Source: an uncultured Porticoccus sp.
Lineage (GTDB): Bacteria; Pseudomonadota; Gammaproteobacteria; Pseudomonadales; Porticoccaceae
Direction: 5' to 3'
NCBI GenBank assembly: GCA_905181945.1
Contig: CAJIZZ010000016.1
Location: 1 to 64,000, forward strand
DNA: 64,000 nucleotides
In this document: piece by piece, positions 50,436 through 53,745 of the stretch
How the letters are laid out: each line of letters opens with the position of its first letter
Position numbering within the stretch: the first letter of the stretch is position 1
Position numbers and translations under genes: made by a program
Notes under the pieces: model-generated
The model's database searches: none
What the model was told of the DNA's origin: nothing
Seen by the model: only the letters and a program-made list of their open reading frames with translations

Positions 50436-51758
50436 ATGATCAGACGCACCTCCAAGTTTTTTGCTCACATCATGGAGCGGTGGCTACCTGATGCGTTCGT
50501 TATCGCCATCATAATAACTTTTATAGTTTTAATTACCGGTGTAATTACACAAGACTATTCACCTACGCATATGGTTCGATTATGGGGTGATGGGGTGTGG
50601 GATCTTTTAGTGTTCTCCATGCAGGTAACCATTACCCTGTTCACCGGAAGTGTTCTGGCGCAAACAGAAGCGGTAAGAGGGGGTTTGAAAAAAATCGCCT
50701 CCATAGCCAAAACTCCAGAACAGGCAATTGTATTAATGACTATGATTGCCTTAATTTGTTGCTGGATTAGCTGGGGCTTCGGGTTGATTGCCAGCGCATT
50801 AATGGCGCGTCAGATCGCTCTCCAAGTAAAAGGGGTGCACTATCCCCTCCTAGTTGCCTCGGCTTACTCTGGCATGCTTGTCTGGCATGCAGGGCTATCA
50901 GCCTCTATACCATTAAAGATTGCCGCAACCGATGGTGATGAATTAAGCGCCCTGCTAGAGGGAAACACCATTCCCTTGTCTGAAACAATTTTCAGCTGGG
51001 AATCTCTAACTATATGTCTCATTCTTTTTGTCACGCTGCCCCTGGTTAATAGGCTGATGCTACCTCCACCGGCAGAAACTATTGAAGTAGAGCCCTACAA
51101 AATAAATATTAACACAAACCCCGATATAAAGATCAGCACCCCTGCTAATTACGTCGAAAATCACCGATTGCCCACTTTTTTGCTAGGATTGCTCGGCGCA
51201 TACTATTTAGTAGACTATATTACGTATGATGGCGCTATTGGTCTAAATACCATTAACTTTATTTTTCTGGTAGCAGGGCTTTTGCTTCATCAGTCGCCAG
51301 CATCCTATCTGGCTGCGCTTAGCGAGGCAGTAAAAGGGCTCTGCGGGGTTGTGCTTCAGTTCCCTTTATATGCTGGGATTATGGGCATGATGGTAGGTTC
51401 TGGATTAGCCGCATCTATGTCGGGATGGTTTGTCAGCATCTCAAATGCTGACAATTTTACACTACTGACCTTCCTTAGTGCTGGCCTAGTGAATATTTTT
51501 GTGCCTTCAGGTGGAGGGCAGTGGGCCATCCAGGCTCCCATTGTAATTCCTGCAGCGCAATCATTAGGTGTTCCGCTACATCAAGCTGCTATGGCTGTTG
51601 CCTTTGGCGATGCATGGACCAACATGATTCAACCGTTATGGGCTCTTCCATTGCTAGGTATCGCAAGACTCAAAATCAGGGATATAATGGGCTATTGCAC
51701 AGTGACGCTAATCTGGTCAGGATTCGTGTTTGCGCTAGGCATGATATTCTTATTTTAG
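50436..51758 (+). CDS. Short-chain fatty acid transporter (AtoE family)
   Basis: This is a 440-residue inner-membrane protein with about ten to twelve hydrophobic helices. It resembles the AtoE short-chain fatty acid transporter family, for example the start ERWLPDAFVIAI and the stretches NIFVPSGGGQWAIQAP and AAMAVAFGDAWTNMIQP. Such carriers move acetoacetate, butyrate or similar acids. It follows apaH after 60 bases and precedes the kinase-like gene by 30 bases. No atoDA genes are next to it. Confidence 0.88.
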   Translation: MIRRTSKFFAHIMERWLPDAFVIAIIITFIVLITGVITQDYSPTHMVRLWGDGVWDLLVFSMQVTITLFTGSVLAQTEAVRGGLKKIASIAKTPEQAIVLMTMIALICCWISWGFGLIASALMARQIALQVKGVHYPLLVASAYSGMLVWHAGLSASIPLKIAATDGDELSALLEGNTIPLSETIFSWESLTICLILFVTLPLVNRLMLPPPAETIEVEPYKININTNPDIKISTPANYVENHRLPTFLLGLLGAYYLVDYITYDGAIGLNTINFIFLVAGLLLHQSPASYLAALSEAVKGLCGVVLQFPLYAGIMGMMVGSGLAASMSGWFVSISNADNFTLLTFLSAGLVNIFVPSGGGQWAIQAPIVIPAAQSLGVPLHQAAMAVAFGDAWTNMIQPLWALPLLGIARLKIRDIMGYCTVTLIWSGFVFALGMIFLF

Positions 51759-51788: not shown

Positions 51789-53231
51789 ATGAAAAAATAT
51801 TTGTATTATTTGTGTATATTAACCCCGATTTTCCCTGTAAATGCAGGCATGATAACCTTCCTAAACAATGAAGACGGTCATACCAACTGGCAACATCTGG
51901 CCAATTGGTCCGGCGGGATCTTCATTATCCTTTTATCAACCACCGCCATAATGCTTTTTTTTAGTCGAAGGCAAGCTCATCAATCGAACAGAGCCCTCGA
52001 GGAAATACGAAATCAACTTGAGCAGCGCGTATTAGAAAGAACTGCTACTTTGGATCAATACAACCAACTACTAAAAGACTCAAATAGACTTTTAGAGGGC
52101 GAAATAACACAACATAAAACAACAACAGAGCGACTTCGTTCGTCGGAGTCATATATAGCTGGTATTTTAAGCTCCATGCCCCTCATGCTAATAAGTTTAG
52201 ATCAGCATGGGAAAATAACTCGATGGAATCAAAAAACTGAGTCTATTACAGGGATCAGCTCTGCACAGGCCTTAGGTAAGGATCTTTGGCAAACTTATCC
52301 AGCCATAACTATTACCCCAGCACAAATTAGCTATGCTCAAACTCAGAGTCAAGCCACAACAATTAAGCATAGCCAGCGAGGTCAGTATCACTTCGACATA
52401 ACTATTTACCCACTTAGAGACCAAAAAGCAACCGGCGTAGTTGTTTTGATAGATGACGTAACAGAGACCATTCTTACTGCAAACATGCTTATACAAAGAG
52501 ACAAGATGTCTTCTATGGGAGAACTAGCCTCAACTATGGCGCACGATATCAATTTCCCTCTACAGTGTATATTGAAAAATTTAAACCAAGGACTGTCCAA
52601 CATAGAAAAACTAGACTCCTTAAAAAATAAAGATGGAGAAAGGCTAAAATTGCCACTGTTAGATGCCAGCCAACGAGGCCAACAAGTTCTAGCTATTATT
52701 GACAATCTTGTAGATTTTTCTGTTAGCAGGGGAGGCAAAAAACAACTCGGCGCCATTCCTTCTCTCGTTAGTGACACTCTTGAACTAGCTTGCAAGGTAA
52801 TCACCTCTCCCTCTGGTCTAAAATTTAGTGATATTAAGGTTGAAATTGACTTTGAAGAAAATCTTCCCCAAATACCTTTTTTTTCCTCAGAAATGAAACA
52901 AGTATTATTAAGCCTATTTCGTCATGCTTGTTATGCAATCAGTGAAGTCACACCTGAAAAATCAAAACCCCTAATAAAGATTAAAGTTATGGAGTGCTAT
53001 GAAGCACTATGGGTCAAGATACAACATAACGGCTTAGGTGTTAGCAAAGAAGAACAGCAATTTATTTTTGAGCCTTTTTTTACCAACCAATCAGTAAGCT
53101 GTAACTATGACTCAGCAAAACGCCTATCTTTTTCATATTTTATTATTACAGAACAACACAAAGGTCAGCTGGCAATCACTTCTGATTTAGATGTGGGGAC
53201 CACCTTCCATATACAACTCCCGCTATCATAG
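51789..53231 (+). CDS. PAS histidine-kinase-like protein with degenerate ATPase domain
   Basis: This 480-residue protein has a short signal-like N-terminus (1-20), a membrane helix (41-59) and a coiled coil (63-115). A PAS domain lies at about 120-232 and a histidine-kinase core at 238-480. The phosphoacceptor box is intact: His252 in MAHDINFPL. The ATP-binding domain is damaged. Both N-box asparagines are replaced (Ser375, His379), the G1 Asp is His413, and GTGLGLS is AKRLSFS (443-449), while the F box FEPFFT remains. It may be a pseudokinase. No response regulator lies nearby. Confidence 0.85.
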   Translation: MKKYLYYLCILTPIFPVNAGMITFLNNEDGHTNWQHLANWSGGIFIILLSTTAIMLFFSRRQAHQSNRALEEIRNQLEQRVLERTATLDQYNQLLKDSNRLLEGEITQHKTTTERLRSSESYIAGILSSMPLMLISLDQHGKITRWNQKTESITGISSAQALGKDLWQTYPAITITPAQISYAQTQSQATTIKHSQRGQYHFDITIYPLRDQKATGVVVLIDDVTETILTANMLIQRDKMSSMGELASTMAHDINFPLQCILKNLNQGLSNIEKLDSLKNKDGERLKLPLLDASQRGQQVLAIIDNLVDFSVSRGGKKQLGAIPSLVSDTLELACKVITSPSGLKFSDIKVEIDFEENLPQIPFFSSEMKQVLLSLFRHACYAISEVTPEKSKPLIKIKVMECYEALWVKIQHNGLGVSKEEQQFIFEPFFTNQSVSCNYDSAKRLSFSYFIITEQHKGQLAITSDLDVGTTFHIQLPLS

Positions 53232-53284
53232 CGAGCTCCTCAAAATTCCATCAAATAAGGTTGGGCTCAAGAAAAAATCAGCAA

Positions 53285-53322
53285 CCATTAAAAAGCCGGA
53301 ATAATATCCGGCTGTTTAATGG
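53285..53322 (-). terminator. Intrinsic terminator after rplQ
   Basis: AGCCGGA (53294-53300) pairs with TCCGGCT (53307-53313) around a six-base loop, and CCATTAAA pairs with TTTAATGG outside it. On the minus strand the inner stem is followed by a run of T, so it closes the ribosomal transcript. It lies between the convergent kinase gene and rplQ. Confidence 0.85.
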
Positions 53323-53343
53323 TCAAGAAGATTTATAAAAAAA

Positions 53344-53745
53344 TTAACTATCTTCTGTTTCCGCATCAATTTCTACAGCTTCAACCTCTGGCCGATCCAT
53401 TAGTCCAACATAAGCCATTGGTGCTGCGTCGCCTGATCGGAAGCCACATTTTAAAATGCTAATATAGCCCCCAGGACGATCTTGGTATCTAAGGCCCAAT
53501 TCAGAAAATAATTTTCCTACAGCAGCCTTATCTTGAAGTCGACTATATGCCAACCTCCGATTAGCTACACTGTCTACTTTAGCTAAAGTAATTAAAGGCT
53601 CGGCGATCTTACGCAGCTCTTTTGCTTTCGGTAAGGTAGTTTTTATTAGCTCGTGCTCAACTAAAGACGTAGCCATATTACGAAACATGATTCTACGATG
53701 TGCACCTGTGCGGCCTAATTTTCGACCACTCTTACGATGACGCAT
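53344..53745 (-). CDS. rplQ: Large-subunit ribosomal protein L17
   Basis: L17 is a 133-residue 50S protein beginning [24 protein letters not shown], the classic family start. The C-terminus is acidic ([14 protein letters not shown]), a common tail. It is the last gene of the alpha operon, 83 bases after rpoA, and is followed by an intrinsic terminator. Confidence 0.98.

Follow-up and report, generated by a model that had tools for sequence, protein, structure and literature searches.

A conserved family of predicted PAS pseudo-histidine-kinases in Porticoccus and its gammaproteobacterial relatives

The gene, its protein and the ATP-site motifs

The window, by which we mean the whole 64,000-nucleotide stretch of DNA that was analysed from an uncultured Porticoccus sp., carries on its forward strand a gene whose reading frame is open throughout and encodes 480 amino acids ending in GTTFHIQLPLS (Table 1), the intact full-length product described in an earlier note on this DNA. 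In a Pfam profile search of the protein, PAS_4, PAS and PAS_9 all pass their cut-offs, as does HATPase_c (40 bits; cut-off 26.4), and HisKA falls below its own (11.8 bits; cut-off 26.9). No HPt domain was found among the Pfam matches of the protein, of which the CA domain forms the end. Hydropathy analysis gives only two hydrophobic peaks, at residue 16 and at residues 48–51, and the topology that these suggest would make the stretch between them probably periplasmic. This stretch holds the motif TNWQ(Y/H)xAN, in which W34, Q35 and N39 are found in 115 of the 115 orthologue rows that have a letter there. A motif of the same type also occurs in L029, the canonical sister kinase described below.

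The predicted structure of the 480-residue protein (mean pLDDT 77.8, pTM 0.49) shows a signalling helix, a PAS domain, two DHp helices and a Bergerat-type CA domain, in which the lid residues 430–440 are poorly modelled (pLDDT <50). When the CA part of the model was compared with solved CA domains, it matched them with Z scores of up to 19; ThkA (3a0x), for example, gave Z 19.0 with an rmsd of 2.3 over 146 residues.

Table 1 Features of the locus, in window coordinates.
Feature	Position	Strand	Basis
AtoE-type short-chain fatty acid transporter, upstream neighbour, 30 bases before the gene	50436..51758	+	PF02667, 476 bits
Predicted pseudo-histidine-kinase gene, 480 aa	51789..53231	+	Open frame; HATPase_c and PAS pass, HisKA below cut-off; orthologues
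Residues 1–19, hydrophobic N-terminus (signal-peptide-like or first membrane segment)	51789..51845	+	Hydropathy peak at about residue 16
Residues 32–39, TNWQHLAN, predicted periplasmic motif (family TNWQYVAN)	51882..51905	+	Conservation
Residues 42–60, membrane helix	51912..51968	+	Hydropathy peak 48–51; predicted helix 34–128
Residues 61–118, coiled signalling helix	51969..52142	+	Model helix; 22 of 58 columns ≥90% conserved
Residues 119–228, PAS domain	52143..52472	+	Pfam PAS_4, PAS, PAS_9
Residues 229–314, DHp-like dimerisation helices	52473..52730	+	Model helices 225–274 and 281–313; weak HisKA match
His252 codon, phospho-acceptor position	52542..52544	+	His in 84/116 orthologues
Residues 315–480, CA-like (Bergerat) domain without ATP-site residues	52731..53228	+	Fold matches of the model
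N-box position 375–379, SLFRH in place of NxxxN	52911..52925	+	Alignment
G1 position 413–415, HNG in place of DNG/DxG	53025..53033	+	H413 in 115/116
F box 427–432, FEPFFT, retained	53067..53084	+	Alignment
G2 position 441–447, DSAKRLS in place of GTGLGLS	53109..53129	+	Alignment

Alignment with canonical kinases places the two N-box asparagines at S375 and H379 and the G1 aspartate at H413, exactly the substitutions that the earlier note had read from the sequence, and it was equally right that His252 (within MAHDINFPL) and the F box are kept. The reported loss of GTGLGLS also stands, since all of its glycines and its threonine are gone, but the register given for it (AKRLSFS at 443–449) was off by two: the box aligns to 441–447, and L446 and S447 are retained. 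The window protein therefore has one feature of an active HisKA kinase, His252, and lacks the N-box asparagine pair, the G1 aspartate and the G2 glycines, while it shows those of a histidine pseudokinase: a core fold that is retained (in the model and by the HATPase_c match), catalytic residues that are gone and a gene under constraint. By its sequence it would thus be, as had been proposed, a full-length PAS protein that is not expected to phosphorylate itself. Annotation that goes by domains would label it a sensor histidine kinase, and the biochemistry expected from that label would be wrong. Its best NCBIfam match by score is to AtoS, one of the PAS-HisKA-HATPase sensor kinases (NF008468, 135.7 bits), but the cut-off of that model is far higher (646 bits) and the catalytic motifs are lost in the window protein.

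Orthologues, canonical sister and constraint

An alignment-based scan of named genomes, in which 80 of 147 relatives were kept, returned degenerate motifs at all 80 loci; G1 reads HNG at 79 of them, the exception being L107 with FFG. These loci come from Porticoccaceae, SAR92, Marinobacterium, Nitrincola, Pontibacterium, Neptunomonas, Motiliproteus, Dasania, Teredinibacter, Kangiellaceae MAGs and others; among the matches with a name UBA4435 is the closest (79% identity), other close ones being Porticoccus MAGs. A class-wide sample of 369 genomes gave matches of 598–764 bits in six, the window genome and five others, all with degenerate motifs. The best matches in the other 12 matching genomes of this sample (212–288 bits) were canonical kinases, one of which (L136) has an odd G2 box. 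Finally, an order-wide sample of 390 genomes, searched with the canonical L029 as query, contained 46 carriers, counted by the N-terminal start and the length of the match, together with two genomes that have the canonical form. Motifs were read in 44 of these carriers, G726 being left out and L193 (from G524) ending before the ATPase motifs.

Residues were counted over 116 distinct orthologue rows, a set that leaves out L141 (very divergent), L189 (chimera-like) and L193 (truncated). The G1 aspartate is kept in 0/116 rows, as is the G-x-G of GLGLS (both G443 and G445). Both N-box asparagines are likewise kept together in 0/116, with N375 in four rows and N379 in four other rows. Position 375 is serine in 98 of the 116 (R in nine, G in five, N in four) and position 379 histidine in 89 (Y in 14, S in six, N in four, C in three); H413 is present in 115. 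At position 445 arginine occupies 103 rows and histidine 11, at position 448 phenylalanine 103 and tyrosine 11, and R378, L446 and S447 are each found in 116/116. The recurrence of the losses in relatives, for which the earlier note had asked, is thereby established: the same motifs are changed in 80/80 loci and in 116/116 rows, so that neither chance nor sequencing error, which the note had named as a possible refutation, can account for them. The description of the ATPase domain as 'decayed' had to be given up, because the losses are old and common to all orthologues outside one genus and are accompanied by specific, conserved replacements, a pattern that argues against a decaying gene.

Some individual sequences differ from this pattern. 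L189 (from G462), one of the 44 carriers whose motifs were read, combines HNG at G1 with a C-terminal end of GTGLGLA; it lies near a contig end in a fragmented assembly that is 87% complete and 6% contaminated, and we therefore read it as a candidate chimera. L141 (G018:C1), a protein of 731 amino acids from the same bacterial family, has AGDL in the His box, with RHPA and RLSFS at the G1 and G2 positions, and by these motifs is probably another dead relative. Six sequences from one genus group (L181, L182, L187, L188, L196 and L197) have no histidine at the phospho-acceptor position (Y or F) and read HKG, HRG or HQG at G1; they would have drifted further while retaining H413 and G415.

We built a tree from 73 chosen rows, L141 included, over residues 66–355, so that the ATPase domain was excluded (quick search, SH-aLRT as the only support). 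The 57 pseudokinase rows form one clade (SH-aLRT 100). The next branch, sister to this clade, consists of L029 and L152 (SH-aLRT 91), and 14 other active kinases fall outside the grouping of the two; L141 is a long branch. Kinases of the L029/L152 type, which come from one other genus of the order, share the architecture of the window protein, including the N-terminal TNWQYLAN, and L029 is 41% identical to it, but unlike the window protein they have canonical motifs (MAHDIN, LFRNANHAL, DNGVG and GTGLGLS or GSGLGLS). Orthologues with normal motifs, which the earlier note had listed as evidence that would tell against it, thus do exist at two loci in one genus; because their branch lies outside the pseudokinase clade, they leave the pseudokinase reading standing. 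The simplest reading of a single pseudokinase clade, whose canonical sister shares its N-terminus, is that the ATP-site residues were lost once, long ago, after this lineage had parted from the L029 type.

The dN/dS comparison that had been suggested as a check gave strong purifying selection. Synonymous sites are saturated in the window pair (G000 and G014, the two small genomes of the genus; pS 0.79), and close pairs of other species were therefore used: 24 pairs with dS 0.21–0.90, from the 40 listed of 61 pairs with dS 0.05–1.2. Across these 24 pairs dN/dS is 0.027–0.205 for the whole protein and 0.036–0.161 for the CA domain, and the dead CA domain is thus preserved about as carefully as the rest of the protein. 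Ratios of 0.2–0.47 came from some of the distant pairs, in which dS is close to 1; we took these ratios to reflect underestimated dS and excluded them. In the window pair the whole-gene dN is 0.135. Seven neighbouring non-ribosomal genes lie above this value (0.145–0.245), namely the transporter and those that we take, from recognition of their sequences, to be lptD, surA, pdxA, rsmA, apaG and apaH; the presumed rplQ, rpoA, rpsD and secY, named in the same way, lie below it (0.026–0.072). Within the protein, the DHp has the highest dN of the five parts in this pair (0.235), which tells against the mode of action that we prefer below.

Genomic setting and candidate partners

The window genome, that of a marine bacterium and scored 100% complete, measures 1.33 Mb; its genus-mates mostly have 2–2.7 Mb, one other (G014) has 1.2 Mb, and the pseudokinase gene is retained in both small genomes. 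The AtoE-type transporter gene lies upstream in 11 of 81 loci, all in the genus group of the window, and we do not think that it is part of the pseudokinase function. In nine genus-mates an epimerase-like gene, a label that we assume from sequence recognition, is found between the pseudokinase and rplQ. It is absent from the corresponding interval of the window (53231–53344), as it is from the second small genome, UBA4435, and the pseudokinase gene stays in both. Gene clusters round the 81 loci contain no constant partner gene, and when the kinases and receivers of the window genome were used as queries they matched genes near 7 of the 81 loci, mostly kilobases off and differing between loci. 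The pseudokinase gene is an orphan, without a conserved neighbouring kinase or response regulator.

Three intact kinase–regulator pairs were found in the window genome: PhoR–PhoB, with PhoR assigned by Pfam, and two pairs that we take, by recognition of the sequences, to be NtrB–NtrC, which adjoins a glutamine-synthetase-like gene, and a RegB–RegA-like pair. The genome encodes four receiver-domain proteins and has three other HATPase_c matches, in frames of 657–808 codons without a HisKA match. At 174–1845 of L114, a receiver-SpoIIE(PP2C) protein adjoins a STAS protein, a partner-switch-like orphan-regulator pair that has been kept in this small genome.

Candidate partners were compared with the distribution of the gene, with absences read by hand. 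Co-occurrence of the receiver-PP2C protein and of RegB was scored over the 46 carriers of the order-wide sample; the former is missing in six and the latter in ten, and neither qualifies as a universal partner. For NtrB and PhoR the set comprised 55 genomes: the 46 carriers together with G014 and G028, five more carriers that do not belong to the order, and the two canonical-form genomes. PhoR was found in 52 and is missing in G635, G775 and G445, two of which are near-complete, so it too was rejected as a universal partner. NtrB was found in 54, its sole miss being G445 (83% complete); alone among the kinases of the window genome, it was present in every well-assembled carrier that was tested. 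NtrB is, however, a common system, and because the 55 genomes are all carriers of the gene or of its canonical form, the count is weak evidence that does not demonstrate an association; a specific link of the pseudokinase to NtrB seems to us quite unlikely.

Possible modes of action

The reading that we prefer, with a probability of about 0.5, is that of an ancient and conserved membrane-anchored PAS pseudo-histidine-kinase that acts through contacts on another kinase without phosphate transfer. Its input would come through a short periplasmic segment with the invariant W-Q-x-x-x-N, one membrane helix, the signalling helix and the PAS domain, which would together feed a dimeric DHp–CA core. 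This core would have kept its fold when ATP catalysis was lost in one ancestral event, and would since have been retained as a protein-contact module. Its output would be a conformational change in a second protein, probably an active sensor kinase with which it forms a complex or mixed dimer and on which it would act allosterically, as RocA does on CovS, with no ATP-driven phosphorylation of its own and no phosphate passed. More tentatively, with chances that we put somewhat below even, the whole clade may represent an ancient and so far unnamed group of PAS pseudokinases whose members span many families of Gammaproteobacteria. A single loss in their ancestor would have made the ATP-binding domain into a module for contacts or for a ligand (S375, H413, R445-L-S-F448) that works independently of phosphate, and an entire sensor-kinase architecture would so function without phosphoryl chemistry.

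Precedents for such action exist. RocA, a membrane pseudokinase of Streptococcus pyogenes, is reported to bind the active kinase CovS and to modulate it; a two-hybrid assay of the two proteins was negative and co-immunoprecipitation positive (PMC7028121). RocA has six putative membrane segments, whereas the window family has one together with a hydrophobic N-terminus and a PAS domain. An evolved ChrS is reported to act on HrrS (PMC9491836). The sequence-based case that the window protein uses no ATP would be strong but not final, because RcsD of Enterobacteria, like it a kinase-like membrane protein and one without the conserved histidine, is reported to autophosphorylate (PMC3762810). RcsD has an HPt domain; none was found in the window protein.

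Histidine pseudokinases are thus already known as a kind, although few are described in the literature surveyed (DivL, RocA, RcsD and the evolved ChrS), and 2025 reviews mention DivL as the example. The widespread family reported here would be new: we found no paper on it in the open-licence literature searched, which is not proof of absence. Such a family would offer a clean before-and-after comparison, a canonical sister that shares their N-terminus against >100 dead orthologues, and with it a direct way to study why a kinase core persists after its catalysis has been lost. The window genome is well suited to such tests, since only three intact kinase–regulator pairs were found there.

We favour action on another kinase over the sensing of a regulator or of a new ligand. 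In the first of these alternatives the dead core binds a response regulator, reads its phosphorylation and passes the signal on, as is known for DivL of Alphaproteobacteria, which resembles the window protein in having PAS domains fused to a dead DHp–CA core and in working through contacts; a DivL variant with histidine at the tyrosine position is reported to show DivK~P-stimulated autokinase activity (PMC4211667). DivL differs in having tyrosine (alanine in one species) at the histidine position, whereas the window family mostly keeps histidine and has lost the CA motifs. The DivL core (4q20) is among the fold matches of our model (Z 18.6), and D253 and P257, by the histidine, are invariant. 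The DHp stretch past the histidine is the response-regulator docking site in known kinases. Its conservation in the family is low, however (0.43, compared with 0.59 in a set of different active kinases), which speaks against one regulator partner common to all members, as do the carriers that lack the receiver-PP2C protein (6/46) or RegB (10/46) and the lack of any regulator conserved by the gene. On balance we regard receiver sensing as unlikely, if deserving of some weight.

Alternatively, the CA domain may have become a one-protein sensor whose refilled pocket (S375, R378, H379, H413, R445 and F448) accepts a ligand other than ATP. Replacements that are both specific and kept (H413 in 115/116, R378 in 116/116) would suit such a pocket, as would a constraint on the CA domain that is near that of the whole protein. 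On the other hand, R378 occurs in 9 of 29 active-kinase rows and is therefore not a novelty of the pseudokinases, and 27 of the 116 rows have Y, S, N or C at position 379. Of the alternatives to action on a kinase, this one has slightly less in its favour than receiver sensing.

The suggestion in the earlier note that another kinase may phosphorylate the protein has been weakened. His252 is present in the window protein and in 84 of 116 orthologues, as would be expected of a passive phospho-acceptor that feeds a relay or serves as a sink, but the other 32 carry six different residues (Q in 13, Y in 10, N in four, R in two, S in two, F in one), which amounts to at least 14 changes as counted on a FastTree tree, and the adjacent D253 never varies. 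A phosphate on His252 is accordingly not needed for any function common to all orthologues, and we consider a passive acceptor improbable. Least probable of all is a cryptic active kinase, which would bind ATP by some other means and transfer phosphate to its own histidine or to a partner: the fold is intact in the model, most orthologues keep the histidine and RcsD offers a reported precedent (PMC3762810), but 116/116 rows have lost all three of N box, G1 and G2.
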